Below, in pieces: positions 7,592 to 41,909 of a DNA stretch of 64,000 nt. The stretch is from Hysterangium stoloniferum (Eukaryota > Basidiomycota > Agaricomycetes > Hysterangiales > Hysterangiaceae), in assembly GCA_015178975.1 (NCBI GenBank), contig WHVD01000038.1, positions 1 through 64,000 on the forward strand, given 5' to 3'. The notes under the pieces are model-generated. The model saw only the letters and a list, made by a program, of their open reading frames with translations. It searched no databases and was not told the origin of the DNA. Made by a program: the position numbers and the translations under genes. How positions within the stretch are numbered: the first letter of the stretch is position 1; each line of letters begins with the position of its first letter.

Positions 7592-8429
7592 TGTTAGGAT
7601 ACACACACAGGCCGGGTTTCCGGAGAAACCCGCGGGATATCCAGTAGGACTTGGCTTCAGCTTATAGGCTGCGCCCTCGCTAGATTGTGTTGTCCAATTT
7701 CAAACGGACAGACGGGGATCCCGGGGAGTCCGGGCGGGGTTCGTGGGTTGTAGGTCGTAAGTCGGGGGTGGTGGGTCGTAAGTCGGAGGTCGTGGGTTGT
7801 GAGTCGAGTTGGTTGAGAGAGATAGATGCGCCGGAGCCCGTGGGCTCTGACTAGTGCGAGCGATGTGAATCGAGTAAGGTTTTAGAGCGGAAAATATTAT
7901 TAGATTACTGGGGGGAATCTAAGCTAATTTTCTGACTGGATTGTATGTACAACATCTGCCAGTTTATATAGACCGTGGAATGCATAACATACCAAATTGA
8001 GTAATAATGAAACGAAACTAACAAAACATGAAACAGGAATAGTAAACACCAAATTGGTGTTAGGAACGGGACGGAACGGAGCGGAGTCTGAATCGTGACA
8101 AAGCATAACCCATAACGGGAAACAGAGCGGGAGCGGAGTCCTAAATCGCGACAGGTCATTTGACTAAAATGGGAATGGGGCTCGATTAGAGCGGTGACGG
8201 GATTCTAAGTGGGGACCGGTGACTGATGCGTGGGACGAAGACGGACATAGACAGAGACGGAGTCCAGGGGAGGTCCAGTGACTGATATGTCGTAATGAGG
8301 TCGAACGTAACAAGTCTTGATGTAATGGAGTCCGGGCGGGAAATCCTATAAACAGACGATTGGTGCTTGTAGCGCGTGGGGGCATACGGGTTAGTGCCCG
8401 GAGTCCGGCGGGATTGTCCGGTCGTAACA
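7592..8429 (-). repeat. Element 1 left LTR (3' LTR in element orientation)
   Basis: On the plus strand it starts TGTTAGGATACACACACAGG and ends GTCGTAACA. It holds a TATA box (TTTATATA at 7963-7970, minus sense TATATAAA) and the 11-nt self-primer match ATTTTCTGACT (7927-7937). The GGCTTCAGCTTATAGGCTGC core shared with other LTR families also lies in it. Confidence 0.9.
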
Positions 8430-8579
8430 GTATCCTCCCTTTATGCCGAAGTCCCAAAGAGGCTCTAGACCTAGATAAGGTTCTTGTCGGCTACATGCAT
8501 GTGTCAAAAGTCATGTCAGTTACACGTATGTGTCAAAGAGTCATGTGATCTGGAAGGTAAGGTTCAAACGTGACGAGCC

Positions 8580-8589
8580 TATATATAAA
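8580..8589 (+). promoter_or_regulatory. TATA-like box of the antisense gene in element 1
   Basis: TATATATAAA about 50 bp before the ATG at 8640, followed by a pyrimidine-rich leader. Element 2 has TATAAAAA at the equivalent place (about 35101), which supports a conserved promoter pointing away from the LTR. Confidence 0.5.
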
Positions 8590-8639
8590 TTTGAAAAAAT
8601 AGAAATTTCTTCTTCTTTATTACCCCCATCTTCGATAAA

Positions 8640-9667
8640 ATGGGACCAAAACCAACACCCAAACGAGCGATGTCAACCACGGGGTCCTCCATGGGCTCTC
8701 CGTATCAGGCGCCTTGGAGCGCAGCCCAATTGTTGGCGTGGCGTGAAGAGCAGCGCTGTCTTCGTGAAGAGCAGCGCTGTCTTCGTGAAGAGCAGCGCTG
8801 TCTTCGTGAAGAAGCAGAGAAGGAGGCGAGGGAGGCCGAGGAGGCCCTGGACAAAGAGTACCAGGCAGCATTGGCCGTGGAGGAAGAGGCTGCAAAGGAG
8901 AGGGAGCGTGAGGTGGAGGAGGCTGCACGGGTGGCCGCGGAGAATGCCCAGGTGGCTGTGGAGAAAGCCCAGTTGGCCGCAGACAGGGCCGCAATTGTTG
9001 CGGGAAAGGTAAGTCCCATTATTCACTTGTCGAAATTTGCTGACTTGTATTTTTCAGCACACGGTGACAGAGGTGGAGTCGGAGTCTGAGGGGGAGCCAG
9101 AGAGCCCCCAAAAGGTAAGCCTCATGTCCGTGGGATAACCGTGGAGACTGACCGTATCAACAGAAGGCAAGGAAGGCGGCACCAGTCCATCTTCCGACGC
9201 GGAACGAGCCGCGGTGTTCCGGTTGTAACGACCGGAACACTGAATGCAACCGAAAGTCCGGCCAGGGTCTGGGGTGCTATCAATGCGTGCACCTCAAGGC
9301 GAGGTGCTCACTTGTTCATGAGCAGGCCACGGGGTCTGGGGCGCGAGATGTAAGCGGGTCAGACGGGTTGTCCGGGTTGGACAAAGTCCTTGGACGGATC
9401 GCCGAGGGCATCGAGGCCCAAAACGAGTTGCTCCGGAAGAGCAACAAGGTCCACATAGTGGTGGTGAAGGCGCTGTGCGGACTCCACGAGGAATTTTGGA
9501 AGTTCCTGGTGGAGTATGGCGGCTATGTTTATGAGGAGCTGCAAATCGGGAGTTCCGAGGATGCCGGATCGGATGAGGACGGGGTTGACGTGGAGGTCGC
9601 AGAGCTTCCTGAGGAAGTAGCTGAGGCGGCAGGGAAAAAACACAGCCCCATAGAAATAGATGAATAG
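8640..9667 (+). CDS. Antisense spliced gene of element 1: coiled-coil, Zn2Cys6-like protein
   Basis: Exons 8640-9008, 9058-9114 and 9164-9667 are joined by two 49 bp GT-AG introns, all phase 0, giving 309 aa. Residues ~30-120 are a charged coiled coil rich in Glu, Ala and Arg, with three copies of REEQRCL. Exon 2 is acidic. Residues 160-190 hold C-X2-C-X6-C-X9-C-X2-C-X6-C, which fits the fungal Zn(II)2Cys6 binuclear cluster pattern (CX2CX6CX5-12CX2CX6-8C). A helical segment follows, then an acidic tail. The gene runs opposite to gag-pol, starts ~210 bp from the 3' LTR and ends ~200 bp from the pol stop. The family suggests DNA binding or transcriptional regulation, but function is inference. 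The same architecture recurs in element 2. I know of no described family. Confidence 0.8.
8742..8804 (+). repeat. Three perfect 21 bp tandem repeats in the coiled coil
   Basis: The unit CGTGAAGAGCAGCGCTGTCTT occurs three times in frame and encodes the heptad REEQRCL. It expands the coiled coil by whole heptads. Confidence 0.9.
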
Positions 9668-9871
9668 AATAGAAAATAGAACTTGATAATAACTGAACAT
9701 AAAAGTAAAGCACAAAAAACATAAAAAATAAAAGTCAAAGCCAAAGTCCACGGGGAATCCGCTTAAAGACTTGACAAGACATGTCAGAACCTGTAAAAGC
9801 AAAGAGAGACATAGGGCGACAGGGAATAATGAAAATGAGTCCAAATGTAACACGGGGTCCGTGGGGTGCAG
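9668..9871. other. Spacer between convergent antisense gene and pol
   Basis: About 200 bp, A-rich after the antisense stop (AATAGAAAATAGAA, then AAAACATAAAAAATAAAAG). Either strand could be using this stretch for 3' end formation. Confidence 0.4.
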
Positions 9872-12800
9872 TTAGAGAGAAGATAATGGTCCAGGTTTGA
9901 GCGGGTAAGCTGTATGAAAGTCAGTAACAATTTCCGTGGCATTACCGAGTTCCATGGCCAAAATCCATGAGGTCTCTTCATCGGTGCCCTCGTAACCCAC
10001 CCACTTGACCAAGTAAAGCAGTTTACAAGTGCATCGACACTTGTCTATTTTTGAATCTAAAATCTGTGAGATTTCAAACTCAGGTTCTCCATCAATGACG
10101 ACAGGAGGAGGTGGAGATTGCACGCGATCCGGGATAGTGTTAGCAGTACAAGGTTCTAGCATAGAAACATGAAATACCGGGTGTACCGCGCGCATGCTAT
10201 CCAGAAGCCATAGAGTCCAAGAGACTGAACCTACTTGTGCGATAATTTCAAACGGACCTAAATATTTTTCAGCAAGCTTCTTTGATGGATGGGTAGTCCG
10301 GAAGAATTGAGCTTTGACATAAACACGGTCACCAATCTTGAAGTTGGGTGACGGGATCTGGTATTTGTCCACTGAATGTTGGTATTGCTCTTGGGCGGAC
10401 AATATTGCAGTCCAGAGTTCCTCGTGGAGCTCGTGGAGGTCTATGGTGAACTCTTGAGCACGAGCAGAGGTGAGATTTTGTTCTGGATGTACTGTAATAT
10501 TGATTATATCCTTTATTTGCAAAGAATGGGGAAACACCAGTAGTGGCCGAGGGTGCATTGTTGTAAGCAAACTCTGCAAGTGGGAACAAGGTTTTCCAAT
10601 TGTCCTGTTGGTAGTTGCAATATATGCGGAGGTATTGTTCCAATGTCTGGTTGACACATTCGGTTTGTCCGTCACCTTCCGGATGATGTCCGGACGTGAA
10701 ATGTAATGTCATGTCCAAGGATTTTCCGAGGGATCTAAAGAAGTGAGACACGAACTCTGATCCTCTATTGGAAGTCATGTGGGACAGAACTCCGTGCTTG
10801 GAAAATACGTGGATAATGAAAAGTTCTGCTAACTGCACGGACGTAATTGTATCATAAGTAGGGATGAATATACCTTGTTTTGAGAATCTGTCAACAACGA
10901 CTAGAATAGCAGAAAAGCCTTCAGAATCCGGTAGGTGTTCAATGAAATCCATAGAGATAGAATTCCACGGGTGTTCCAGTACCGGGAGTTGTTTCAAAAG
11001 GCCGTATGGCTTGTGTCGCTGAGATTTCGAGTGGGGACAAGTAGTACAAGATTTACAATAGTGCTTAATGAATCCACGGAGTCCGGGCCAAGTGTATTCT
11101 CTTCTTATTAATGATAGAGTTTTGTTGTACCCGAAATGTCCTGAGAGTGAATGATCATGTTTGTATTGAAGGATCCTGAGGCGGAGGCCATTGGAGTCCG
11201 GTACATAGATACGATCGTCAAGTCTAATGAAACCATGTTGATCAAGAGACCGAGGTTGATCGGGGTCCACGGGATTGTCCAGATGAGCTTTAGTAACTGG
11301 GTCTAGCGGAATTGCCAATAGAATATCTTGATGTAACTTCTCGATATCCATAATGATAATTCCACGGACAATGGGGTTGATGAGGAAAGTTGCGCGGACC
11401 GATGCGATAAGCTGTTGATTCGTGAAAATAGGTTTCAGGTTGTGCGGATTTACCATTGCATAGTCATTGCTCCCCTCTTTAGGATAGACGTCCCATCATC
11501 TAGTTAAAGCGTTGGGTTTGCCGCTGAGACGGCCGGGTCGAAAGTGGATAATCATGTTGAAGGCAGAGAGATATTCAGACCAGCGGGCCTGCTGGCGGGT
11601 CAAAAGTTTTGTGGTAGAAAAGTATTCCAGGTTTTTGTGATCTGTTACAACGTCAATAGGAGCTCCTGAACCTTCCAAATAGTGTCGCCACACTTTGAAA
11701 GCTGAAAAGATTGCCAGAAGTTCTTTATCATGAACGTCGTAGTTGAGCTCTGCTCCAGTAAAAGTCTGGGACAGAAAAGCCATGGGGTGGACTTCTCCGT
11801 TGGAGTCCTGGATAGAGAGAATGGCTCCAAGTGCATAGTTGGAGGCGTCCGTTTCAACAATGAGTGGGAAGTCCGGTTTCCAATGTGACAGAATAGGAGC
11901 TGTAGAAAAAGAATTTTTTAAAAGATTGAAAGCTTTTTGACACTTATCATTAAAGTTCCACGGAGTACCCTTACACGTAAGATGGGTAAGGGGTACCATG
12001 ATGTCGGAATATCCACGGATAAAACGTCTGTAAAAATTGGCAAAGCCGAGGAAGGATTGTATATCTTTAACTTTTCGGGGTTCGGGCCAATCTTTGATGA
12101 CTTGCACTTTAGTTTCATCCATGTGGAGTCCATCGGGTCCCATCATGAAACCTAGGTATTCCATGGAGTCCGTGTCAAAAGTACATTTTTTACCATTTGC
12201 GAATAAACCATGTTGTCTGAGCCTCCGGAGAACCTCACAGACTTGTTTGTCGTGTTCCGCAGGATTCTCGGAGTAGATAAGAATGTCGTCCAAGTAAACA
12301 ATGACACATACATCGAGCATGTCGGAGAAAATGTCGTTGATAAAATGCTGAAAAACAGACGGAGCATTGGTGAGTCCAAAAGGGATGACCAACCACTCGA
12401 AGGCCCCATAGCGGGTTCTAAAAGGTGGTTTTCCATTTGTCGCCCGCGGCAATCTGGACCAAATGATAGGCGTGCTTGAGATCTATTTTGGTGTAAATCC
12501 GGGCATTCCGTGGAGCATTGAGCAGGTCAGATATAAGTGGGAGTGGATATTTGTCCTTTTTGGTGACAGCATTGAGTCCTCTAAAATCAACACATAGTCG
12601 AAGGGATCCATCCTTTTTTCTGACAAACAGGACAGGTGCTCCAAAAGGAGACTTTGAGCGTCGAATAAAACCTATGGACAAATGTTCATCCAGGAAATCA
12701 CGGATTGCAGATAGTTCCATGGATGAAAGCGGGTAAATATGTCCTAGGGGTGGCTGGGCGCCATCTTCAAGATTGATTTTTAAGTCGTATTCTCTGTGAG

Positions 12801-13600
12801 GCGGAAGCCGGTCAGCTTTCCACTTGCTAAAAACATCCACGAAGTCATGATATTTCTCCGGGACACCTTCTAGGTCAGCAGCTTGCTCAGATTCAGATAC
12901 TGGGGTTGAAAAATGTCCAGTTGCTTCATCAATTTTTAAGTTGATAGTGAATGCCTGGGACCCATCCATTTTTGAAGCCCTAATAAAAGCTGCAGCATTA
13001 ATCAGAGAAATGGATGGAGGTGCCGTGGGTTCCGGGGAAGCTATAGGTGCCATAGGGATCACAGGAGTCCTCGAGACTGCAGGTGCCGGGAAGGCCATGG
13101 GTGCCGTGGAGGCCGAGACAGGCGCAGTTTCCTCGGTTGCCGCGGGAGTCCGGAAAGTTATACTGTTAGCTATCCAGTCAATCAACGGATTGTAGCGGGT
13201 AAGCCAGTTATGTCCTAGGACCACCGAGCAACTTGAGTCTAACTGGGTCACATAGAAAGTGACCAATTGAGATGTTCCACAAGGGAAATTGATGGGTAAA
13301 TCACAAGCTTGGGTAACAACCAAATTACTTGTGCCATTGAAGAGGCGGAGGCTGACGGGATTTATCGAATAAGTTGACAAAGAATTTTTTTGCGTGAATT
13401 TTGTATCTAAAAAACAATGAGTCGAGCTGGAATCTATGAGAGCTGAAAAAACGAATTTCGGAATCATATTAGACATAAGTTTAACGAAAAATGAATCAGA
13501 ATGTGAAAGAGCGGATGCGTTGAGGCGAGTGAACTCTTGAATGCACAGAGAGGCAACACAACCCCTAACCCATGTGGAGTCTGTGGGGTTGCTTACTCTT
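9872..13600 (-). pseudogene. Element 1 pol (protease-RT-RNase H-integrase-chromodomain), broken
   Basis: Read downward from the gag overlap the domains are: aspartic protease near 13440, carrying ALIDSSSTHC where element 2 has ALIDSGSTHC; RT with YLDD near 12290; RNase H around 11850-11600; integrase zinc finger and core (11200-10650); and a chromodomain near 10020-9900 containing YLVKWVGYEG. Four lesions are visible. One extra T at ~12429 shifts the frame. CGA became TGA at ~11496. One C is missing near 10505. The integrase reads TSNRGSEF where element 2 has TSDRGSKF, so a catalytic Asp is Asn. The -1 frame relative to gag matches element 2. Family knowledge: the chromodomain guides integration to modified chromatin. 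Confidence 0.9.
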
Positions 13601-14885
13601 TTTTCGAATTGGCAGCCGGTTTGTCCTTCGACGGGGTTTCCGTGGAGGCTTTGGCTGATCGACCCTTTGAAGAGTTTGCTTTTGCCAGCGGACATTCCGG
13701 GACTCGATGACCGGGTTTCCTGCACAAGAGACAGAGGTTGTTGTCCATACGACGTTGTCTTTCTTGTGGAGTCAATTTGCCATCGGGTCCGAGTTTGCCT
13801 GAGAGGTCGGGTTTTCCGGCTTGCTTGCCGGACTGTTGACCCTTGTTGTTGTCCTTATTGTCCTTATTGTTGTTGTTGTTGTTTGAAGACTTTTTATCAT
13901 TCTTCTTGTCAGATTGCGTGGAGTTCTGGTTGCTGGTTGACGAATTGTTGTTATTGTTTTTGTCCTTGGACTTGTTTACTTTGTCCGCGGATGTCTCGCG
14001 GGCAACTTCCGCGTGACATTCCCAATAACATGCGTCCGTGTTTTGAGCTTTGAGGTGCATACGGGACAGGGTTTTTGGCTTGCCATCTTCTCCTTTCGAG
14101 ACTTCATCTTTAAGGCGGGACGGCAGACCGGCGTAGAATTGGTGGCGGAGAGCGGGATCGCCCCACTGACAACGAGCTGCAAGATTATTGAATTGGACGA
14201 TGTAGTCCGTGATGCGCTGCATGTCCTTCATACGAAGATTTATGAGACTATTCTCGGCTTCTCCTGTCGGGTCATATGGGCCGAAGTTGGTTTCAAGCTC
14301 CTCAACAAACACCTCCCAATGTTCAAGCCAGAGCGGCTCTTCCTCGGATATCCTGCTAAAAGCTGGTTTGAACCATTTCAATGCAGATCCCGACAAATAT
14401 GACAGTGCGTAATTGACTTTTCGGGAGTCCATGGAGAATGCAGCAGCACGATCATGGAAGTTGAAGTGACATTGCATGAGGAAAGTAGAGAGTTTGTTTG
14501 GGTTGGAACCCGTGAAGGGTTCCGGAGCATTGACTTTTGACCGTGGAGGTTCTTGTTCCTTTTTCTTTCGTTCTTCGAGCAGGTGCATCATGAATTTATC
14601 TATGGTTCCTGCTAAAAATTCAGAAGTAGGATCCCCCAAATGGGGTCGTTGAAGAGGCAGAGGGTTTTCGAGAGGGATTTTGACACCTTTGCCCTTGTCG
14701 GGGGCCACGGAATCGTACTCGTTCTCGGATTCGTCCAGGTTTTCCGGGACTTCTTCGATACGGGCTTCTTCCATGGGTTCTGACTGGTTCGCAAGTGTCT
14801 GACTGGTATACAGAGTTAACGGGGAATGAAGAGTCGACGGTCCAGGCATTGATGACTGTGCACGTGTACTTCTTCTTGGTGGCAT
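13593..14885 (-). CDS. Element 1 gag
   Basis: A 430 aa intact frame starting MPPRRSTRAQ 24 bp after the primer site. The capsid-like middle (about residues 120-270) includes the conserved segment DYIVQFNNLAARC. An Asn/Asp/Lys-rich linker follows, then one CCHC zinc knuckle, CLLCRKPGHRVPEC (C-X2-C-X4-H-X4-C), expected to bind the genomic RNA. The frame ends at TAA in GAAAAAAGAGTAA; pol continues in the -1 frame. About 35% or more of the residues appear shared with element 2 gag by eye. Confidence 0.92.
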   Translation of the reverse strand: MPPRRSTRAQSSMPGPSTLHSPLTLYTSQTLANQSEPMEEARIEEVPENLDESENEYDSVAPDKGKGVKIPLENPLPLQRPHLGDPTSEFLAGTIDKFMMHLLEERKKKEQEPPRSKVNAPEPFTGSNPNKLSTFLMQCHFNFHDRAAAFSMDSRKVNYALSYLSGSALKWFKPAFSRISEEEPLWLEHWEVFVEELETNFGPYDPTGEAENSLINLRMKDMQRITDYIVQFNNLAARCQWGDPALRHQFYAGLPSRLKDEVSKGEDGKPKTLSRMHLKAQNTDACYWECHAEVARETSADKVNKSKDKNNNNNSSTSNQNSTQSDKKNDKKSSNNNNNNKDNKDNNKGQQSGKQAGKPDLSGKLGPDGKLTPQERQRRMDNNLCLLCRKPGHRVPECPLAKANSSKGRSAKASTETPSKDKPAANSKKE

Positions 14886-14908
14886 AATGAAAACAATCTG
14901 CGAGTATT

Positions 14909-14919
14909 AGTCAGAAAAT
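14909..14919 (-). promoter_or_regulatory. Self-priming primer-binding site, element 1
   Basis: The minus-sense sequence ATTTTCTGACT lies 2 nt inside the 5' LTR edge. It is the exact complement of AGTCAGAAAAT in the left LTR (7927-7937 on the plus strand) and differs by one base from the right LTR (15257-15267). This is the Tf1-type arrangement, where the 5' end of the transcript primes itself. Confidence 0.7.
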
Positions 14920-14921
14920 AC

Positions 14922-15759
14922 TGTTAGGATACACACACAGGCTGGGTTTCCGGAGAAACCCGCAGGATATCCGGTAGGACTTGGCTTCAGCTTATAGGCT
15001 GCACCCTCGCTAGCTCGTGTTGTCCAATTTCAAATGGATGGACAGGGATCCCGGGGAGTCCGGGTGGGGTTCGTGAGTCGTAGGTCGTAAGTCGGGGGTC
15101 GTGGGTCGTAAGTCAGAGGTTGTGGGTCGTGAGTCGAGTTGGTTGAGAGAGATAGATGCGCCGGAGCCCGTGGGCTCCGACTAGTGCGAGCGATGTGAAT
15201 CGAGTAAGGTTTTAGAGCGGAAAATATTATTAGATTACTGGGGGGAATCTAAGCTAATTTTGTGACTGGATTGTATGTACAACATCTGCCAGTTTATATA
15301 GACCGTGGAATGCATGACATACCAAATCCAGTAATAATGAAATGAAACTAACAAAACATGAAATGGGAATAGTAAACACCAAATTGGTGTTAGGAATGGG
15401 ACAGAACGGAGCGGAGTCCGAATTGTGACAAAGCATAACCCATAATGGGAAACGGAGCGGGAGCGGAGTCCTAAATTGTGACAGGTCATTTGACTAAAAC
15501 GGGAATGGGGCTCGATTAGAGCGGTGACGGGATTCTAAGCGGGGACCGGTGACTGATGCGTGGGACGAAGACGGACATAGACAGAGACGGAGTCCGGGGG
15601 AGGTCCGGTGACTGATATGTCATAATGAGGTCAAACGTAACGAGTCTTGATGTAACGGAGTCCGGGCAGGAAATCCTATAAACAGACGATTGGTGCTTGT
15701 AGCATGTGGGGGCGTACGGGTTAGTGCCCGGAGTCCGGCGGGATTGTCTGGTCGTAACA
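14922..15759 (-). repeat. Element 1 right LTR (5' LTR in element orientation)
   Basis: 838 bp, the same length as the left LTR. The differences seen by eye are mostly CpG transitions. It contains TATATAAA (minus sense, 15293-15300) placed 33 nt before the predicted transcript start at 15267. Confidence 0.9.
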
Positions 15760-21600: not shown

Positions 21601-24080
21601 AGAGGTTAAGGGCAGACTTGCATGCTGAAGTGACCAACCTGGCAAGGCTTACTGGTGTCAACAAAATGTGGTGATGGGAATCAACTGAACAACATGCCTT
21701 TGAAGATGTGAAGTGGATAGTTCAGGCTCATTGAGACCGTTATTGAATTACTTTGGACTACTCACCAGGTCACCTAGCCATCAACTTGGTTACAGATGCA
21801 TGTTTTATGGGTGTCAGTGGTATCCTTAGTCAAGGTGAAGATGTGAAAATGGCAGCAGTAGTGTCTTTCTGGTCTGGGAAGTTCAATTCAGCTCAACAGA
21901 ACTATCCTGTGCATGAGCAGGAGTTGTTGGCAATTGTCAAATCCTTGAAACGGTTTCATCCTCAGTTACTGGGCATAAATTTCAGAGTGTGCATTGACCA
22001 TAAAGGTATAGAGTATATTCTTACCCAGAAGAACTTATCTCCAAGGCAGACACATTGGCTGGACCTGTTGAATGAATTTGACTTTGAGATTCACTTTATC
22101 ACCAAAAAGTCAAATACGTTTGCTGATGCACTATTGCATATATACAGTAATGAGCCCTTGGGGATTGTAAGGGCGGAGTCTGAGTATGTAACTGATCCCC
22201 CACTTCTGGATGATGAAGAGAAGGGGGCAAAGCCAGTCCCAAGGGTATGGGGCAAGGGTGTGTCAACACCCTTGTATACAGGGTCTACAGTAGTGGTCAC
22301 TGATGAACCCTCAAGGCAGTCAAGTAGGTTGGCCACTCATCCACATCCATCTTATGCAACATTCACTGGAATGGTATCACAGGGACAACATGGTATGAAG
22401 CCAGCAGGACATACTGTGGATCAGACCATGGAAGGCTTCCCCAGTCTTTCCCCTAAGGAGTCAACACAGGAGATAAGGGTACACCTATCAATTCCAGAGG
22501 ACCCAGCTCTTCTGAAGAGATTGACCCACTATTGACAATGGAGGGTGGGAGGCATCAGACACAAGGGGGATCATTCTCTGATTTTTCTCTCACAGATATT
22601 ATGTCACAGTCTGATCCAGGGTTGGACATCCCTGAGGTGTATGGTACTGACCATTTCTTTTCAAAAATACTGGCAGCACCATAAAGGCTTTAAGTCACAG
22701 CATGGTCTTTTTTTTTCAATATGGCAGGGAGCAAACTCCTTTGTATCCCTGATATTGCTGTGGGCAACTGACGGGTGTGAGAAATGTTGATTACACATGC
22801 TCATTTTATTTTGACCCATCTAGGGGCAAGGAAAACCACCACATACTTGCGAGCAACAGTGTGGTGGTGTCCAATTTTAGACAGGCAGACGGGAATCCCG
22901 GGGAGTCTGGGTGGGGTTCTTGGGTCGAGGGGTCATGGGTCGGAGGTCGTGGGTCGAGAGGTCATGAGTCAAGATGTAAGTTGAGATAGGTAAGAGAGAT
23001 AGATGTGCCGGAGCCCATGGGCTCCGACTAGTGTGAGCAGTGTAATTCAAGTAGGAGTTTAGAATGGAAAATGTATTAGATTACTGGGGGGAATCTAAGC
23101 CGATTTTCTGACTGGATTGTATGTACAACATCTGCCAGTTTAAATAGACCATGGAGTGAATGACATACCAAATCCAGTAATGATGAAACGAAACTAGCAA
23201 AACATAAAACAGGAATAGTAAACACCAAATTTGGTGTTAGGAATGGGACGGAACGGAGCAGAGTCCGAATCGTGACAAATCATAAACCATAACGGGAAAT
23301 GGAGTGGGAGGGGAGTCCAAATCGTGACAGGTCATTTGACTAAAATGGGAATGGGGCTCTGTTAGAGGGATGATGGGTTTTCCAAGCGGGGTCTGGTGAC
23401 TGATACATGGGATGAGGATGGACATAGACAGGGATGGAGTCCAGTGGGTTTTCCAGTGACTGAAAGACAATGTAACGAAGTCAAACGTAGACAAGTCTGA
23501 TGTACAGAGTCCGGTGGGAATTCTGGTAAACTGACAATCAGTGCGTATAGGGCGTGGGTGCATATAAGTTAGTGCCTGGAGTCCAGTGGGATTTCCAGTC
23601 GTAACAGGTGGCCATTGATGATGAAGGATGTTGAGGTGTTTTGCAGGTCATGTAGTGTGTGTGCCACCTCCAAATATGATACAGAGATCACAGGGACAAC
23701 TCCGCACACTGGAAGTACCCTCGCATCCATGAGAGGCCATTGGCATCAACTTCATTGGTCCACTCAAAAGATCACCTTGGGGAGTTTGACAGTATCTGCC
23801 TGATAATTGTCCATTTAACCTGAATGGTCCATTTAGTCCTGACATGTACCAATTATACAGCCATTCACATGGCTGAGGTGATATTTGAACAGGTTTATAA
23901 GTTGCATGGGTTACCAGTGAGGATTATTAGTGACAGAGACTCACTGTTCACTAGTATATTTTGGAGAGAGCTTCACCAGCTGATAGGAGTTGAATTATGA
24001 ATGTCATCAGCTTACCACCCACAGACAGATGGAGCCACTGAAATGGTCAATCAGACTATGATGCAGATGCTGTGGCAATG
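18641..24080 (+). pseudogene. Decayed gypsy element of a second lineage (gag-pol), plus strand
   Basis: The pieces are in collinear order. A Ser/Asp-rich gag leader lies at 18644-18898. The capsid-like region at 18960-19480 includes VLEAFVYTYDLW and LEQIVWDGVHNYI. A CCHC knuckle, CFMCKKEGHEAQNC, is near 19695. A protease-like segment, FINGHPVNALINSTLADF, is at ~21210. RT is largely deleted. RNase H at 21753-22130 includes TDACFMGVSGIL and VHEQELLAIV. The integrase zinc finger (FCRSCSVCATSK) is at ~23640, and the integrase core at 23930-24060 includes RIISDRDSLFTS and SSAYHPQTDGATE. Multiple in-frame stops. A short LTR is inserted in the zinc-finger region (22868-23606). No chromodomain or antisense gene is seen. 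The gag differs strongly from elements 1 and 2. Confidence 0.8.
22868..23606 (-). mobile_element. Solo LTR, family 1 short form, flanked by GGTGG
   Basis: 739 bp. It begins TGTCCAATTTTAGAC and ends GTCGTAACA, matching the element 1 LTR except that the outer ~110 bp are absent. GGTGG stands on both sides (22863-22867 and 23607-23611). It splits an integrase zinc-finger coding region whose reading resumes after it. The conserved TTTTCTGACTGG self-primer segment is present near 23103. Confidence 0.8.
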
Positions 24081-29490: not shown

Positions 29491-31076
29491 CAGTGGCTTC
29501 CCAATGTTTTGGTAATTCTCAATAAATGCTTTATAACCCACCAGATAAATTTTCTAAAATAGTGAAATTATTCTCACATATACCTTAGCATACTAGCTTT
29601 GACATACATAAATATTACATAATATATATGGATATTGGTGTCACAGTGAATATTTAAAAATGACCAATCATTGGGACAGTTTTGCAGCCACCCTTTTTGA
29701 ATCAGATATCTTGTTATTCTAGTACTTTGTATGGCCTCCCTTAGGCTTTATTATAGCATCAAGTCTTCTGGGCATATTTTCAATCAGTTTCTGCCTTCTG
29801 AGGCTCAATCTTTGCCCATTCCACTTCCACCCTCTCCTATAATCCCTAAACTCCCTTTAATGGTGAAGGATATTTCTGGAGCTGTTTCTTCAGGTGGAAT
29901 CAAAGATGTTCTATGGGATTCAGGTCAGGAGACTGTGCTGTCCAGTCTAACACCTGAATATGATTTTCAAAAAACTATTTTTGTGCCATCTTGGATGTGT
30001 TTAGGTTATTATCCTGCTGGAAAATGGCCTTATCTGCTGGAATATCCAAATCTTCAATGCTCTGGGACAAATGCTGAGCCAGTATCTCCACATATTGTGC
30101 AGAATCCATCCAATCTTCAATCCCTGCAAGCATTCCCACTCCATTCCAACCCATACAGCCCTACACCATGATATCTCCACCTCCATACTTGACTGTAAGT
30201 TGGGTTGTCCTATCAGAAAGTGGTTCTCCAGCTTTCTTCAACACATATTTATGTCCATCTGACCCAATCTTATTGATATTGGTCTCATCAGACCACAAGA
30301 CCCTTTTCTGATCATCCACAGTCCAGTTTTGGTACTTGAGGGCAAAGCTTAACCTGGCCTTTATATGTTGAGCCTTGAGCAAAGGTCTTTTTGCATTGAC
30401 TACAGCTTTGAAACCATGCTGTTTCAAGGTCCTTGTGACTATTTTGGGTGAGACATGATATTTATTGATGGAATTAATGTAGTGTGTAGCCTGGATAGCA
30501 TTATCTAGTTTGCCAGAGGTGATTTGATATATGATCCCCCTTTGGTCAGTAAGAGAAAGCTTGGATGGACATCCTCCTTTCAGGTTTTCTTTGTCTATCT
30601 CTATCTCCTGAACAATTCTACTGATAGTAGATTTGCTAAGACCTGTTGTAGAGGCTACATTCCTATTGGAGAGTCCATTTTGTAGGAGGGAGATGGCTTG
30701 TTCTTTTTTGAGAGGGGAAATAGCTTTCATGATAAGAATGATAGTTAAAATGTGACATTTCATGTCACATATTAATTAGAACATCAAATAGATGTCACCT
30801 GAATTTTCCTGTAATTTTCCTGGCCCTCTGGAATATAATATGATATAATGAAATGTGTGAAAAGAGAGGGTTGCAAAACTGTCCCAATGATTGGTCATTT
30901 TTAAATATTCACTGTGACACCAATATCCATCTATATTATGTAATATTTGGGTATATCAAAGTAGTATGCTAAGGTATATGTGAAAATAATTTCACTATTT
31001 TAAAAAATTTATTTGGTAGGTTATAAAGCATTTATTGAGAATTACCAAAACATTGGGACAGTTTTGGAAGCCACTG
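29491..31076 (-). mobile_element. Tc1/mariner element B with ~205 bp inverted repeats
   Basis: 1586 bp, flanked by TA on both sides (29489-29490 and 31077-31078). The terminal repeats 29491-29692 and 30871-31076 are near-identical inverted copies; the left one lacks ~10 bp near its end. Each repeat begins and ends with inverted versions of the same site (AAAACTGTCCCAATG / CATTGGGACAGTTTT). One transposase pseudogene lies between them. Confidence 0.88.
29730..30763 (-). pseudogene. Tc1-type DDE transposase of element B, three nonsense codons
   Basis: The N-terminal 200 codons are open (30763-30161): a helix-turn-helix region with LLQNGLSNRNVASTTGLSKS, then RVLWSDETNINKIGSDG with the first catalytic Asp. 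Reading on in the same frame shows FQQDNN (second Asp) and SPDLNPIEHL (third acidic residue). Stops stand at three places where Tc1 relatives have Trp: after GGDIMV (~30165), before FFENHI and after NPIEHL. Each is a single G-to-A change of TGG. The HTH binds the terminal repeats and the DDE core cuts and joins DNA. Confidence 0.85.
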
Positions 31077-34388: not shown

Positions 34389-34971
34389 TGTTAAGTGCCG
34401 TGTCAGGAACTTATTCCGGAACTATCGGGAAGTCACCGGGAAGTCGGAAACTCGTGGATAGGGTCAGGACGTCGGCTTCAGCTTATGTGCTGCGCCTCTA
34501 CGCAAACGCTCAATGTCCTTAATTTCGGAAGTGAACTAACAACGGAAGATATGGATATTCAGAGTTCCGAAGAGTTCCGAATATCGAGCGTACAGAAAGA
34601 CGGGAGGAGGAATAAGAAACTAAGTCGATATCAGATCTAAAGTAAAGTACAAATTCACGGAAACTAATATAAGTCTACTCGTTATTGTACTACAAACTGA
34701 GACCATAATAAGACGGAAACGGAAGTATTCTTAAAACGGAAATACAATAAGACATATTAGGAAGACAATATTCCGAGACGGGAATACAACAACAAACGAG
34801 TGAATACTTGTCAATGGACAAATTACCAAATGCGGAACAAACGAAGAACGCGGATGATACGGTAACTATGATGTTCCGTAGTCGGAGGTCAAAGTCGGAA
34901 GTCGGGGATCGGAAGTCAGGAGTGGGAGACCGGAAGTCGGATATTGAAACATCCGGGAACGGGTCGTAACA
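34389..34971 (-). repeat. Element 2 left LTR (3' LTR in element orientation)
   Basis: Starts TGTTAAGTGCCGTGTC and ends GGGTCGTAACA on the plus strand. It contains the shared GGCTTCAGCTTATGTGCTGC core, the self-primer match ATATCAGATCT (34628-34638) and a TATA element (TAATATA, 34665-34671; minus sense TATATTA). Confidence 0.93.
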
Positions 34972-35226
34972 GTACCCCCCTGTTAGGCCGAAATCCCATA
35001 GAGGCGATTAGGTACTGAGTGTTTGAAGCGACGGCTGACTGTTATGTGTCGTGAAATTTACGCAATTATGGAGGTGAGAGTTTCGGTTATTATTCTGAGT
35101 ATAAAAACCTCCAAATATTCGAATTAACGTTTTTGTTTCTTTATCCACGACTTGTATGTCGATTCGTCGCCGTTATTCATCACTACCCCGGAAAACTCAG
35201 ATACCGAAATATCCATCCTGCAAAGA

Positions 35227-36297
35227 ATGTCGAAGGTCGCAGAACTTCAACAAAAACGCCAGAAAATGGAGGAGTTGAAGCGACGACAGGAGGAGGAGGA
35301 AAAAGCGTTGATAAAAGAGTTGAGGGATGCGGAAGAGGCGGAAAAACGGGAATTGGAGCGGGCGAAGGTGGAGAAAGAAAAAGAGTTGGCGAGGTTGCGG
35401 AAAGTGATGGAGGATCGGAGGTTGAAGGAAGAAGAAGTGAAGAAACAACAAGAAGCTGAGGCGGCGGAAAAACGTAAGGAGGTAAGGGAAGGAAAGGTGA
35501 GTCCGATTCCATAGATTTCCGTGGTTACAACCGATAACTGTTGCGTACAGCGAAAAGCCGTGGAGGTGGAAGTAGAGGGAGAAGCTGGGCCTTCGAGTCC
35601 TAAAGTAAGTGCATCTACAAAAGGTCGGTAATTGACTAATCTTCCGCAACAGAAACAAAAGGTCAAGGCTCCGGAACGGATGGAAATTGCCCATGACACT
35701 CCATGTGTTCGATGTTCCGTACGGGATACAACTTGTTGGAAACAGAAGGTAAAATGGGGTGGAACTTGTTATCCTTGCGCGGTCCTCAAACTTCTGTGCA
35801 CTCTTGCTGCGAAAAGGGTTCCGAAAAGCGAAAAGGCTCAAAAACCTACCATCGCAGAAGGTTCAGGAGCGACCAAAACGGCGGAAACTAAGGTGCCGAG
35901 TACGGATGGTATGGGCGTTGAGCTCCTTAAGGAATTGGTCGATACAATGGTCTTCATCGGGGTTGAGATGCGGGAAATGCGGGAAACACTGGATCGCCAT
36001 AATGAGATCCAGGAGAAGGGTTTCCGTTCGTTGGTCCGGAATTTCCGGAGGCAAAACGATTTCCTGGAGAAGATGATGGTTAGTATCGGTGTAATCGCGG
36101 TATCCGAACGATTTGCCGATAAGGCGAAAAACCAGCCGAATGATCCATTGGCGGAGTGTGTGGAGCGGAGATGGGGGTCGGGAAAAGAGGAGAGTGAAGA
36201 TGAGGAGGTACAGGATATGGTGGAAAGTGCGGAAATTGCTGAAGAGCCGGAGGTTGGGACGGAAGGTGGATTTGGGGTGTCAGAGACTTTAAGATAG
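35227..36297 (+). CDS. Antisense spliced gene of element 2: coiled-coil, Zn2Cys6-like protein
   Basis: Exons 35227-35496, 35551-35604 and 35653-36297 are joined by GT-AG introns of 54 and 48 bp, both phase 0, giving 322 aa. Exon 1 is an uninterrupted Glu/Lys/Arg coiled coil and exon 2 an acidic linker. Residues 126-157 form C-X2-C-X6-C-X10-C-X2-C-X6-C, again fitting the Zn(II)2Cys6 pattern. A helical segment (MREMRETLDRHNEIQEKGF) and an acidic tail follow. Domain order, intron number and intron places equal those of element 1 although most residues differ, which argues for selection. The start is uncertain: an earlier ATG at 35156 lies in another frame and would give a 39-codon upstream ORF. 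The gene ends 78 bp from the convergent pol stop. Confidence 0.8.
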
Positions 36298-36374
36298 ATT
36301 TAATAATATTTTTTTGACTTGCAAAACCTAAAACGAGTGTGAAAACAGAAGTGTCGGAAACTTGAACAGAAAGA
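36298..36374. other. Short spacer between convergent stops
   Basis: 77 bp between the antisense stop and the pol stop, including AATAATATTTTTTTGAC. This compact tail-to-tail arrangement makes overlapping 3' ends likely. Confidence 0.4.
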
Positions 36375-39300
36375 TTAGAGTGATGATAAAGGTCCGGGTT
36401 TGCCTGGATAAGCCGTGTGGAAGTCAGTAACAATTTCCATAGCATGTCCAAGTTCCGTGGCCAATATCCATGAAGTTTCCTCGTCGGTACCTTCATAACC
36501 TGCCCATTTGACTAAATAGAGCAATTTACAAGTACGTCGGCGATTGTCGATTTTAGAATCCAAAATTTCGGAAACTTCGAATTCAGGTTCTCCATCAATG
36601 ATGACCGGAGGGGACGGAGGTTGAATATGTTCCGGGAATGAGTTAGGAACACAAGGTTCTAGCATGGAAACGTGGAAAACGGGGTGGACTGCTCGCATAC
36701 TGTCGGGAAGACGGAGAGTCCATGAAAGTGAACCGGCTTGTGCTATAATTTCGAAAGGTCCTAAGAATTTCTCAGCGAGTTTTTTAGAAGGTCAGGTAGT
36801 ACGGAAGAATTGAGCTTTTACAAAAACCTGATCACCAACTTTAAAATTAGGAGGCGGGATCCTGTTTTTGTCCGCGGAACGTTGATAATGTTCCTGTGCG
36901 GAAGAAATAGCTTTCCGAAGTTCTTGATGTAATTCGTCGAGGTCGGTAATAAATTCTTGAGCACGGACAGAAGCCAAATCTCGTTTGGAATGTACTGTGA
37001 GATTCGGATTATAGCCTTTATTGGCGAAGAAGGGAGATATGCCGGTGGTTGCATTCGGAGAGTTATTGTAGGCGAATTCCGTGATCGGAAGAAGGGATTT
37101 CCAGTTGTCCTGTTGATAATTACAATAGATGCGGAGATATTGTTCCAGTGTTTGATTAACGCGTTCCGTTTGTCCATCACCTTCCGGGTGATATCCCGAG
37201 GTGAAGTGTAGTTTCATGTCGAGGGCTTTTCCGAGGGCCTGGAAGAAATGGGAGACGAACTTGGAGCCTCGATCAGAAGTTACGTGAGATGGAACTCCGT
37301 GTTTGGAAAATACGTGAATAATGAAAAGTTCCGCTAATTGTAAGGACATGATTGTATCATGAGTGGGTATGAAAATGCCTTGTTTCGAGAATCGGTCCAC
37401 AACGACTAGAATGGATGTAAAGCCTTCGGAAGTCGGGAGTTGTTCGATAAAATCCATGGAAATTGAATTCCAAGGTTTCTCTGGTATCGGGAGTTGCTTG
37501 AGAAGGCCGTACGGCTTATGCCTCTGGGTTTTAGAGCGTAAGCAGGTGGTGCATGACTTACAGAACTGAGTTACGAAATCTCGGAGGTTGGGCCAAGTGT
37601 ATTCTCTACGGATTAAACCAAGAGTGTTGTTGATGCCGTAATGTCCGGAGATTGGATGATCATGTTTATACTGAAGTACGCGGAGTCGGAGATTGTTGGA
37701 ATCTGGAACGTAGATACATCCATGGAGACGGATAAAACCTTGAGAGTCTTGTGACCATCGGGGTTGGTCGGGATTGTCGGGAACTTCTAAATGTGGCTTG
37801 AGGGCCGGATCGGAAGTGAGTGCAGAAAGGATATCTTGATGTAATTGCTCAATGTCCATAATCATGACGCTACACATAATTGGATAGTAAAGGGAAGTTG
37901 CTCGGATAGATGCGGAAAGTTGTTGCATTGTAAAAACCGGTTTCAGGTTATGTGGATTAACAACAGCGTAGTTACTTTCCCCCTCTTTAGGATAGACGTC
38001 CCATCGTCGAGTCATGGCATCTGGTTTTCCACCAAGACGTCCGGGTCGGAAACGGATAATCATGTTGAAAGCGGAAAGAAATTCAGACCAACGGGTCTGC
38101 CGGCGGGTTAAAAGTTTAGTGGTAGAAAAATATTCGAGATTTTTGTGATCGGTAACGACGTCAACGGGAGTTGCGGAACCTTCGAGATAATGGCGCCAAT
38201 GTTTGAAAGCTTCAAAAATTGCCAAAAGTTCCTTATCATGAACGTCGTAATTGAGTTCGGATACTGAAAGTGTCCGAGAAAGGAATGCGACCGGATGAAT
38301 TTCACCGTCGGAATCTTGAACGGAAAGGATCGCGGCAATTCCATAATCGGAAGCATCGGTTTCCACAATAATTGGAACATCAGGTTTCCAATGGGAAAGA
38401 ATCGGGGCAGAAGTGAAAGCATTTTTTAAAGTCTGGAAGGCGGAGCGGCATTTGTCGTCAAAAACCCATGGTTGAGTTTTACGGGTAAGACAAGTGAGCG
38501 GTACTGTAATATCCGAGTAGTTCCGAATAAAACGACGGTAAAAGTTGGCAAAACCTAAAAATGATTGAATGTCCTTGACCTTCCGTGGTTCGGGCCAGTC
38601 ACGGACAACTTGAACCTTGGTTTCATCCATACGGAGACCATCAGGGCCGATGATGAAACCTAAGTATTCAATAGAATCCATGTCGAAATAACATTTTTTA
38701 CCGTTGGCGAAAAGACCATTTTTACGGAGTCTTCGGAAGACTTCATGGACCTGTTCATCGTGAAGAGCGGGATCCTCGGAAAATACCAAAATGTCGTCCA
38801 AATAGACTATAACACATACGTCAAGCATGTCGGAAAATATATCATTAACAAAACGTTGAAAAGCGGAAGGGGCATTGGTAAGGCCGAACGGCATAACCAA
38901 CCATTCAAAGGATCCATAGCGAGTCCGAAAAGCAGTTTTCCATTCATCACCCTCGGCAATTTGGACCAAATGATAGGCGTGTTTGAGGTCTATTTTGGTG
39001 TAGATCCGAGCTTTCCGTGGGGCGTCGAGTAAATCGGTAACGAGTGGAAGTGGATACTTGTCTTTCTGTGTAATGGAATTTAACCCTCTGAAATCGACAC
39101 AGAGTCGAAGAGAGCCATCCTTCTTTCGGACAAAAAGGACGGGTGCTCTATACGGAGACTTTGAGGGACGGATAAAACCTATTGACAGATGTTCATCCAG
39201 GAACTCCCGAATAGACAAAAGTTCCGATTGGGATAATGGGTAAATAGGTCCTAATGGAGGGTTTGAACCGGGCTCAATATCGATTTTTAAGTCGTAGGGC

Positions 39301-40077
39301 CTATGTGGTGCAAGCCTGTCAGCTTTTTGCTTACTGAAAATGTCCGCAAAATCATGGTATTTTTCGGGAACTCCTTCCAGATCGGCTTTTAGCTCGGATA
39401 ATTCTGGAGTCGCAAAACGTCCAGATGCTTCATCAACTTTTAAGCTGATCGAAAAACATTGCGAGCCATCCAGTTTACTCGCCCTAACAAATGCCGAAGC
39501 GTTGATGAGAGAGATTTTTGGGGGCTCGGAAGTTTCGATAGAAGCCGGAGATGCCGTTGATGCCGAAAAGGCGTTGGCCGGAAAAGACGCTGCAGGAGGA
39601 ACGGAAGTGTCGGGAGTCCAGAAAGTAATACTGCCCAATACCCAGTCAATCAACGGATTATATCGGGTGAGCCAGTTGTATCCAAGAACTGCCGAACAGC
39701 TAGAGTCCAACTGTGCTACGAAAAATGTAACCGTCTGGGATGTTCCACAAGGGAACCGGATAGACATGTCGCAGGCTTGAGTAATTGCCGTATTGCTAGT
39801 GCCGTCAAACAAACGCAAGGAAATTGCGGGAACAGAATGGAGTTTCAGATTATGTTTCGTGGCAAAGGTGGTCTCTACAAAACAGTGTGTGGAGCCGGAA
39901 TCTATTAGAGCTCGGAACACTAAATTTCCAAGAAAGTCAGAGACGAGTTTTACGAATAATGAATCGGGATTAGAGAGAGCGGACGCGTTGAGACGGACAA
40001 CCTCGGAAACACGGAGAGAGTCAACGCAACCCTCTTTCCGTGCAGATTCCGGAGGGTTGCTTACTCTTTTTTTGACT
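36375..40077 (-). pseudogene. Element 2 pol, one nonsense codon from intact
   Basis: Entered by -1 frame change from the end of gag, then open to 36792 (1042 codons from the first Met). The protease has ALIDSGSTHC (39910). RT spans about 39290-38560 with VIVYLDDILV at ~38800. RNase H follows with IVETDASDYGIAAIL and DHKNLEYFSTTK. The integrase has an HHCC finger ending FCKSCTTCLRSK, a core with DFIEQLP, VTSDRGSKF and GDGQTERVNQ, and a GPY/F-like region. After TGA at 36792-36794 the same frame continues to 36375 with YLVKWAGYEGTDEETSW, the chromodomain. The stop most simply arose from CGA. A readthrough product without chromodomain would still have RT and the integrase core. Confidence 0.9.
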
Positions 40078-41287: not shown

Positions 41288-41308
41288 GATGAGCGAGTCG
41301 CAGAGTTG

Positions 41309-41319
41309 AGATCTGATAT
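41309..41319 (-). promoter_or_regulatory. Self-priming primer-binding site, element 2
   Basis: Minus-sense ATATCAGATCT, 2 nt inside the 5' LTR, is the exact complement of AGATCTGATAT in both LTRs (plus-strand ATATCAGATCT at 34628-34638 and 41561-41571). No match to a tRNA 3' end is needed. Confidence 0.75.
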
Positions 41320-41321
41320 AC

Positions 41322-41904
41322 TGTTAAGCGCCGTGTCGGGAACTTATTCCGGAACTATCGGGAAGTCACCGGGAAGTCGGAAACTCGTGGATAGGGTCAG
41401 GACGTCAGCTTCAGCTTATGTGCTGCGCCTCTACGCAAACGCTCAATGTCCTTAATTTCGGAAGTGAACTAACGACAGAAGATATGGATATTCAGAGTTC
41501 CGAAGAGTTCCGAATATCGAGCGTACAGAAAGACGGGAGGAGGAATAAGAAACTAAGTCGATATCAGATCTAAAGTAAAGTACAAATTCGTGGAAACTAA
41601 TATAAGTCTACTCGTTATTGTACTACAAACTGAGACCATAATAAGATGGAAACAGAAGTATTCTTAAAACGGAAATACAATAAGACATATTAGGAAGACA
41701 ATATTCCGAGACGGGAATACAACAACAAACGAGTGAATACTTGTCAACGGACAAATTACCAAATGCGGAACAAACGAAGAACGCGGATGATACGGTAACT
41801 ATGATGTTCCGTAGTCGGAGGTCAAAGTCGGAAGTCGGGGATCGGAAGTCGGGAGTGGGAGACCGGAAGTCGGATATTGAAACATCCGGGAACAGGTCGT
41901 AACA
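41322..41904 (-). repeat. Element 2 right LTR (5' LTR in element orientation)
   Basis: 583 bp. TATA (minus sense TATATTA) sits 33 nt before the first base of AGATCTGATAT, a normal TATA-to-start spacing. This LTR would drive gag-pol. Confidence 0.93.
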
Positions 41905-41909
41905 ATAAT

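Follow-up and report, generated by a model that had tools for sequence, protein, structure and literature searches.

The antisense gene of element 1

The window analysed here is a stretch of 64,000 nucleotides from contig WHVD01000038.1 of Hysterangium stoloniferum, a truffle-like fungus of the Phallomycetidae whose genome comprises 111 Mb in 554 contigs. A Ty3/Gypsy long terminal repeat (LTR) retrotransposon with a chromodomain was identified at 7592-15759 on the minus strand from its LTR pair and open reading frames (ORFs), and is called element 1 of family 1. The element carries an additional gene at 8640-9667 on the plus strand, between pol and the 3' LTR and opposite to gag-pol, with a spliced ORF of 309 amino acids. 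Exon 1 (8640-9008) encodes a region rich in E, K, R and A that looks like a coiled coil by eye. It is followed by intron 1 (9009-9057; GTAAGT...CTGAC...CAG), exon 2 (9058-9114) and intron 2 (9115-9163; GTAAGC...CTGAC...CAG). Exon 3 (9164-9667) encodes a cysteine cluster and an acidic C-terminus. The cluster (9215-9307) reads C-X2-C-X6-C-X9-C-X2-C-X6-C. Both introns are 49 bp long, of the GT-AG type and in phase 0. Alternative acceptors of intron 2, giving introns of 52 and 61 bp, are also in frame, but position 9163 agrees with the aligned copies. The preliminary description of this locus had read three antisense exons inside the LTRs, joined in frame across two 49 bp GT-AG introns and containing a cluster with Gal4-type spacing; the exons, the junctions 9008/9058 and 9114/9164 and the cluster were all confirmed.

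The splice signals were compared in 35 aligned rows of family 1, namely the window copy and 34 loci picked among the high scorers (the best 150 of 1358 exon-3 candidates were scored). The donor of intron 1 was GTAAGT in 33 of the 35 rows, and that of intron 2 was GTAAGC or GTAGGC, likewise in 33. The acceptor CAG and a CTGAC-like branch word were found for both introns in every row. Intron lengths of 48, 49, 50, 51, 53, 58 and 60 bp were seen, with differences of single bases and more; intact copies had introns of 49, 50, 58 or 60 bp. Exon 1 also varied, by six gaps of one to four bases and one 1-bp insertion. At 8750-8791, exon 1 of element 1 has two extra 21-bp units (an LREEQRC repeat), seen as a 42-bp gap in 33 of the 35 rows.

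The leader of the gene (8430-8639, plus strand) was delimited by divergence and alignment. It contains, adjoining the LTR, a tract that is rich in purines on the minus strand, a conserved block at 8430-8579 and a TATA-like site, TATATATAAAT, at about 8579-8589, some 50-60 bp before the ATG at 8640. The block, running from the LTR to the TATA-like site, ranks among the most conserved stretches, with a pairwise divergence of 0.019 compared with 0.115 at third codon positions, 0.067 in intron 1 and 0.097 in intron 2. The leaders of family 1 and of copy L089 (family 3) contain similar words, ATGTGTCAAAGAGTCATGTGATC and TGTGTGTCAGAACGTCATGTGACC respectively, which may be a promoter element of the antisense gene.

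The 3' LTR of element 1 (7592-8429) is 94.5% identical to the 5' LTR (14922-15759), and the flanking 5-mers, GTCAC and GTTAC, match at four of five positions. The gag ORF runs from 14885 to 13593 on the minus strand. The pol of the window copy is split into several frames and reaches down to 9872; its C-terminal part (9872-10675, minus strand) has Pfam matches to SH3_Tf2-1 and Chromo. The Chromo match (PF00385) scored 23.4 bits (E 5.7e-5), just below the Pfam cut-off of 25.1, whereas L089 scored 26.1 bits and exceeded it. The gene-bearing elements have a chromodomain at the C-terminus of the integrase and are therefore chromoviruses. The gene lies between pol and the 3' LTR and inside the target-site duplications, as an antisense additional ORF should. 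In copy L026 of family 1, the two LTRs agree at 100% over 822 bp, GCTGA flanks the element on either side, the frames of gag and pol are long, and the antisense gene is intact. The family 1 element has thus moved recently.

Homologous genes in related families

Element 2 of family 2, a related retrotransposon, lies at 34389-41907 on the minus strand, with LTRs at about 34389-34971 and 41322-41907 (97.8% identical, ATAAT on both sides) and gag-pol at 36792-41287 (minus strand; ORFs and Pfam). It carries a homologue of the gene at the same place and on the same strand (tblastn 28.7% identity, E 2e-6). The leader (34972-35153) was recognised from its divergence and has a TATA-like GAGTATAAAAACC; divergence was 0.021 at 34972-35094, versus 0.082 at third positions. 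The remaining parts, all on the plus strand, were assigned by alignment and, for exon 3, by homology: exon 1 at 35154-35496, intron 1 (54 bp) at 35497-35550, exon 2 at 35551-35604, intron 2 (48 bp) at 35605-35652 and exon 3 at 35653-36297. Close to its beginning, exon 1 of the window copy is frameshifted; all 28 other rows of the family 2 set (29 rows, from the 150 best-scored of 1036 candidates) differ in length there. The cluster at 35704-35799 reads C-X2-C-X6-C-X10-C-X2-C-X6-C in the alignment of exon-3 proteins. The intron positions coincide in families 1 and 2 despite a protein identity of 28%. Exon 2 starts with RKAVEVE in family 2, with HTVTEVE in family 1 and with RKATEVE in another family 1 copy. 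Divergence within family 2 was 0.213 in intron 2, only 0.047 in intron 1 and 0.04-0.08 at the codon positions. Intron 2 exists in two very different versions among otherwise similar copies, as if it had been swapped by recombination.

Family 3 was represented by L089, whose pol is 82-84% identical to those of families 1 and 2 (78-84% among the three families). L089 has exon 1 and, at the same place, an intron 1 of 53 bp; its exon 2 begins with RKA, after which the gene breaks off. This stretch was used as a query, and the best 40 of 211 candidates were scored. Of these, 33 matched near the full query length, and all except the place of L089 itself ended at or near the L089 break. The idea that family 3 lacks the cysteine exon was rejected. 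The gene lies about 755 bp further from the reverse transcriptase in seven of the eight measured copies than in L089, so that these seven have room for the whole gene. A 286-bp piece of copy L092 contains the last part of exon 2 and the cluster C-X2-C-X6-C-X10-C-X2-C-X6-C, with a stretch that resembles an intron in between; the gap resembling intron 2 lies between GPSSPK and the exon with the cluster. Since the cluster is present in L092 and about 755 bp are extra in seven of eight copies, L089 is a deletion copy (2805 and neighbourhood, minus strand, between pol and exon 2), and the cluster has been kept in three families.

The six cysteines were invariant in all 19 exon-3 proteins of families 1 and 2, with LK between the last two, and in all 21 proteins once family 3 and protein P0002 were included. 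P0002 is at most 45% identical to the best 150 scored matches in the genome and therefore comes from elsewhere. P0001, a predicted protein of H. stoloniferum, was rejected as a homologue from another species, because its residues 65-201 match contig C334 at 99%; it is a gene model of the genome analysed here. Viral contigs were also screened for relatives; 176 stretches fitted the pattern and none was confirmed.

Selection on the gene

The pooled ratio of nonsynonymous to synonymous substitution (dN/dS) over the three exons was 0.255 in the gene frame of family 1 (35 rows, in which near-identical copies weigh heavily) and 0.343-1.59 in the other five frames. The lowest off-frame value, 0.343, belongs to the minus-strand frame that shares the synonymous sites of the gene. 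In family 2 the gene gave 0.354 (29 rows), versus 0.430-1.19 in the other frames. The pol genes gave 0.186 (family 1, last 150 codons) and 0.192 (family 2, 300 codons); a comparison across 9872-11116 was discarded because the pol of the window copy shifts frame there. Six loci were kept out of the sets: L001, L009 and L039 are the window copies themselves and were already present as the reference, L006 and L011 duplicate L010 and L005, and L055 has an insertion. Codons with gaps or stops were omitted. All three exons were intact in 24 of the 35 family 1 rows, and 108 of 150 scored exon-3 matches, counted by eye, had no stop; intact copies are over-represented in these counts because only top-scored matches were used. 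The frame holds across varying intron lengths, the splice sites are kept and 24 of 35 copies are intact, so the gene is more than a chance reading. It is almost certainly a real protein gene, and it is under purifying selection, as the dN/dS over the three exons indicates. The antisense transcript instead of the protein could matter, for example in control by double-stranded RNA, with the open frame being incidental. Such a role has been proposed as possible for antisense ORFs in the accessible text of PMC7264820. The dN/dS values of both families, the frame kept over varying introns and the conserved splice sites make this explanation extremely improbable here.

Relation to Zn2Cys6 proteins

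Zn2Cys6 domains have the spacing C-X2-C-X6-C-X5-12-C-X2-C-X6-8-C, and this spacing was found in 21 of 21 proteins (three families and P0002). With E-values up to 1, Zn_clus matched 4 of 19 exon-3 proteins, the best at 0.62 and below the cut-off. The only Pfam match of the family 3 fragment was also Zn_clus (E 0.25, 11.9 bits versus a cut-off of 21). Neither antisense gene of the window is among the 42 Zn_clus matches of the genome. Profile A1 gave four matches to PDB sequences at E up to 10. The best was a designed helical protein (0.064), and two of the four were the Zn2Cys6 factors LEU3 (0.53) and PPR1 (1.9). The family 3 piece gave one PDB match, to a ribosomal protein (E 5.9). In hhalign comparisons with 12 host Zn_clus fragments, the probability was 85% or 47% depending on the setting. 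Family 1 reached 76%, the family 3 piece 91% and everything combined 73%.

CGG pairs along the elements

Gal4, Ppr1 and Leu3 recognise targets by a logic of paired CGG triplets. An excess of CGG words over the element came to light when the LTRs were searched for possible targets. All 1,536 classes of spaced triplet pairs were ranked against dinucleotide shuffles. In L069 of family 1, the top two classes were CGG-N3-CCG (22 versus 2.3 expected) and CGG-N5-CCG (25 versus 2.7). The base after CGG was A in 14 of the 22 N3 sites and G in 19 of the 25 N5 sites. In family 2 the top class was the direct pair CGG-N6-CGG, with 20 versus 3.2 in L072 and 19 versus 3.5 in element 2. In L089 of family 3 (4.3 kb), CGG-N3-CCG came first (10 versus 1.0), followed by direct CGG-N7-CGG (15 versus 2.2). 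Four controls were ranked as well, namely one gypsy piece, a pair of copia pieces joined together and two stretches of host DNA. Their top seven classes included no CGG pair, and z reached up to 7.6. A motif scan of the window copies found 12 CGG-N3-CCG and 12 CGG-N5-CCG pairs in element 1 (7713-15737), and 15 direct CGG-N6-CGG pairs on the plus strand and 6 on the minus strand in element 2 (34417-41795), both LTRs being counted in each case. The idea that the enrichment is confined to the LTRs was rejected, as the excess runs over the whole element. Full 500-bp bins held 16-45 CGG or CCG triplets in family 1 and 15-28 in family 2, coding regions included.

In coding regions, synonymous codons were permuted, which preserved the protein and the codon usage. 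The pol of family 1 contained 15 CGG-N5-CCG pairs versus 2.0 (z 9.5) and 11 CGG-N3-CCG pairs versus 1.7 (z 7.6). These classes ranked first and second of the 1,536, and none of 600 permutations reached either count; across four control coding sets, the best class had a z of 5.6. The gag of family 1 had 5 CGG-N5-CCG pairs versus 0.8 (0 of 300 permutations). In the pol of family 2, the direct N6 pair was first in element 2 (11 versus 2.8, z 5.0) and eighth in L072 (z 3.6). In that of family 3 (L089), the direct N7 pair was fourth (z 3.8) and CGG-N3-CCG sixth (z 3.7). Of the 26 pair sites in family 1 pol, 4 recurred in alignment in one or more of three further pol sequences, and another 4 could be aligned with none of them. 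Among single words, CGGA ranked first or second of the 4-mers in the pol genes of families 1 and 2, and CGGAA headed the 5-mers in family 2. Single CGG triplets were also raised in pol (z +4.9, +5.6 and +6.4 in families 1 and 2, and +2.9 in family 3), while the total CpG was as permuted. The two copia pieces and the host ORFs were CGG-poor (z -4.1, -5.5 and -2.7), and no spaced CGG pairs were found in the host ORFs (maximum z 1.3). These statistics show family-specific CGG pairs, most strongly in family 1.

CpG retention and decay

The observed/expected ratio of CpG was 1.15 in L069, 1.20 in L072 and 1.25 in L089, and 0.98 in host DNA. It was 0.82 in the gag-pol of the older element 1 copy, 0.56 in L090 and 0.35 and 0.31 in the two copia pieces. 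The window piece 21753-22535 had 3 CpG versus 15 by permutation. Thus, the three gene-bearing families keep CpG, and five other retroelement pieces are CpG-depleted. Among the pieces with no known gene (L087, L088, L090, L091 and 21753-22535), L090 was inspected for one over 1290 bp beyond pol; copies of families 1 and 2 were retrieved via the antisense gene itself, so that copies without the gene are invisible there. L091 is a gypsy piece that lies within an open frame of 1298 amino acids and has almost no CpG, with a ratio of 0.02 over 466 codons of the reverse transcriptase segment. Protection of the sites in resident copies was considered and rejected, because CpG in paired sites decays about as fast as other CpG. 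The replicating lineage keeps its CpG and CGG against a decay that strikes its own resident copies, which argues for selection on the sites and not for lasting protection.

Proposed role of the gene

We believe that the gene may be a self-recognition gene of the element. A second, oppositely transcribed gene would be expressed from its own TATA-type promoter just inside the 3' LTR, and the host would splice the antisense mRNA twice. The introns would outlast retrotransposition, because the genomic RNA is of opposite strand and they do not act as introns there. The predicted product is a nuclear dimer with a coiled-coil-like region and a Zn2Cys6-like cluster, which would bind CGG triplets paired in a family-specific orientation and spacing. 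As the pairs are spread along the element, the protein would cover the element that encodes it and only a small number of loci elsewhere. The benefit would probably be that young copies are held transcribable, by anti-silencing, activation or both, as VANC does for VANDAL. The promoter, the splicing in vivo, the dimerisation, the CGG binding and the effect are all steps that we infer. Self-binding of the protein to the element seems somewhat probable to us. The compound reading, in which an antisense zinc-cluster-like protein binds the CGG pairs of its own element with activation or anti-silencing as the effect, stands at about an even chance and leans only slightly towards being right. Anti-silencing in particular is a plausible effect, but a rather doubtful one. 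The wider proposal falls somewhat short of an even chance: that the whole genome of this clade, coding sequence included, serves as a platform for its own zinc-cluster protein with a family-private CGG code, that protein and sites co-evolve, and that this keeps active copies transcribable in a CpG-losing genome.

Several results weigh against this reading, and those on the protein come first. Pfam lists no match for the antisense protein of the window, and family 2 alone gave only 5.6% in hhalign against the host Zn_clus fragments. When the non-cysteine columns were shuffled, the score was 18.5 (standard deviation 4.4) compared with 26.0 for the real alignment, and the real score was reached in 5 of 60 shuffles; with family 3 and P0002 added, the values were 17.8 (4.1) and 25.9, reached in 3 of 60. 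The resemblance to host Zn2Cys6 domains would thus be largely one of cysteine spacing. Gal4-type domains have a basic first loop, whereas the first loop here is weakly basic, being NDRNTE and SVRDTT with one arginine each and TARNRA in family 3 with two. We do not class the product as a member of the Zn2Cys6 family (PF00172), although it may work like one. All this is what would be expected if the gene is real and selected but its cluster is a convergent zinc-binding or protein-protein motif, for example in a protein that teams up with integrase or Gag or with a silencing factor of the host, and with the CGG pairs unread and otherwise caused. The subthreshold Zn_clus scores, the similarity residing largely in the cysteine spacing, the near-absence of similarity for family 2 alone and the weakly basic loop all suit this alternative; the coincidence of Gal4-type spacing with family-specific CGG pairs is left unexplained by it, and we consider it unlikely, though the strongest of the alternatives. 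The preliminary description had concluded that a chromovirus has acquired or evolved its own regulator. The selected gene and the family-specific CGG pairs speak for an element-borne regulator, but the search with the Zn_clus model stayed below the cut-off, so that the Zn2Cys6 identity is not established, and acquisition from the host is unsupported.

The other contrary results concern the sites. The element 1 copy ranks TCC-N2-GGA first (17 versus 2.5) and CGG-N5-CCG only after it (11 versus 1.3). The copia and L090 controls are CGG-poor and could hardly show pairs, which leaves the host sets as the fair control. In pol alone, the pair signal of families 2 and 3 stays within the best control classes. 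In resident copies of family 1, the loss of CpG is about four times that of other C/G (8.0% versus 2.0%), and CpG in paired sites is lost hardly more slowly (7.4%). Moreover, the gene-bearing families form one clade, so the link between gene, CpG and CGG is a single evolutionary observation. A single clade with CpG ratios of 1.1-1.4, together with the 42 Zn_clus matches in the host genome, would also fit CGG pairs that are sites of host zinc-cluster activators or a compositional by-product of a CpG-rich lineage, unrelated to the gene. This explanation agrees poorly with a pol in which total CpG equals the permuted value while CGG is high, with host ORFs that have no spaced CGG pairs, with sites spread over the whole element instead of near a promoter, and with a spacing that changes from family to family. 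We regard it as unlikely, a little more so than a convergent motif.

The genomic-RNA strand of family 2 shows a one-strand excess (CGG 92 versus 93.9; CCG 196 versus 119.9), which also counts against binding to DNA pairs. This raises the possibility that CGG-N3-CCG and CGG-N5-CCG are tiny hairpins of the genomic RNA used for packaging by Gag or by the antisense protein, and the inverted pairs with loops of 3 or 5 nucleotides could fold. The direct repeats of family 2 cannot form such hairpins, and CGGAA is raised on both of its strands (26 versus 10.3 and 57 versus 14.4). Packaging hairpins are therefore improbable.

Comparison with known systems

For the plant elements Grande (gene23), RIRE2 and Retand (TRP28), the accessible parts of PMC7264820 and PMC11963269 describe additional ORFs that run antisense in the interval from pol to the 3' LTR. 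Botrytis Boty brtn is also an antisense additional ORF, as cited in PMC7264820, PMC11963269 and PMC8365987. Grande gene23 has its own promoter and a nuclear product (PMC7264820, PMC11963269). As far as these accounts go, the plant and Boty ORFs share the position, orientation and family-wide conservation of the Hysterangium gene. The Hysterangium gene belongs to a basidiomycete chromovirus and adds two conserved introns, a six-cysteine cluster and the CGG pairs. Neither PMC7264820 nor PMC11963269 uses the word intron in its main text. Fungal Gypsy elements are noted to have additional ORFs whose function is unknown (Novikova 2010, PMC2864245, Fig. 3 legend). They are likewise extra ORFs in fungal Gypsy, but that legend states no orientation, intron or domain. 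Our literature search, thin on subscription papers, recognised no account of a comparable gene in elements of basidiomycetes. Accessory genes in antisense and anti-silencing of the VANC type are already known separately. As far as the literature was searched, two points are new: basidiomycete elements with an antisense gene that has conserved introns and six clustered cysteines, and the CGG pairs spread over the element.

VANDALs are DNA transposons. Their VANC proteins in Arabidopsis are encoded by the element and recognise family-specific short motifs that are dense in their own element, according to the parts seen of PMC5735166 and PMC10398659. These motifs are mainly noncoding and often form tandem repeats (PMC5735166). 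The Hysterangium element similarly has a family-specific motif at high density, with a coding-only excess above the controls in family 1 only. Unlike those of VANC, its motifs run through gag-pol and are not mainly noncoding tandem repeats.

HBZ is a spliced basic leucine zipper (bZIP) protein with a leucine-zipper region. It is the nuclear product of an antisense retroelement gene of human T-cell leukaemia virus type 1 (HTLV-1), as described in the accessible text of PMC11963269, and the HTLV antisense promoter lies in the LTR (PMC7264820, likewise in part). The Hysterangium gene differs from HBZ, a bZIP protein with a promoter in the 3' LTR, in that it encodes a cysteine cluster and that its TATA-like site is internal to the element. 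The Pfam search found no bZIP domain in the Hysterangium antisense protein. With the Gal4-type factors it shares the cysteine spacing and, in its candidate sites, the CGG-pair logic. It differs from PF00172 proteins in that the cluster lies mid-protein behind a coiled-coil-like region, scores below the Pfam cut-off and has a weakly basic loop.

The antisense genes of LTR retrotransposons have no agreed function, according to the available text of PMC7264820. Here, the DNA itself suggests one, since a candidate target site that is distinct for each family can be read from the sequence. If the proposal is true, this would be a second example, unrelated to the first, of a transposable element that recognises itself through dense motifs, here with sites in the parts that code for protein. 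It would also matter for the question of how an element of high copy number remains active while CpG decays in a fungal genome. The conserved introns further demonstrate that introns can be retained by a retroelement in the long term when the gene is antisense to the genomic RNA.

Other features of the window and genome

LTR-like copies at 22864-23607 and 62541-63345 are 82% and 85% identical to the LTR of element 1. Family 1 copies were also observed near contig ends, in the first few kb of C1, C16, C25, C33, C51 and C102, perhaps because the assembly breaks at repeats. An ORF at 30161-30763 on the minus strand resembles what we take to be a Tc1/mariner-type transposase.

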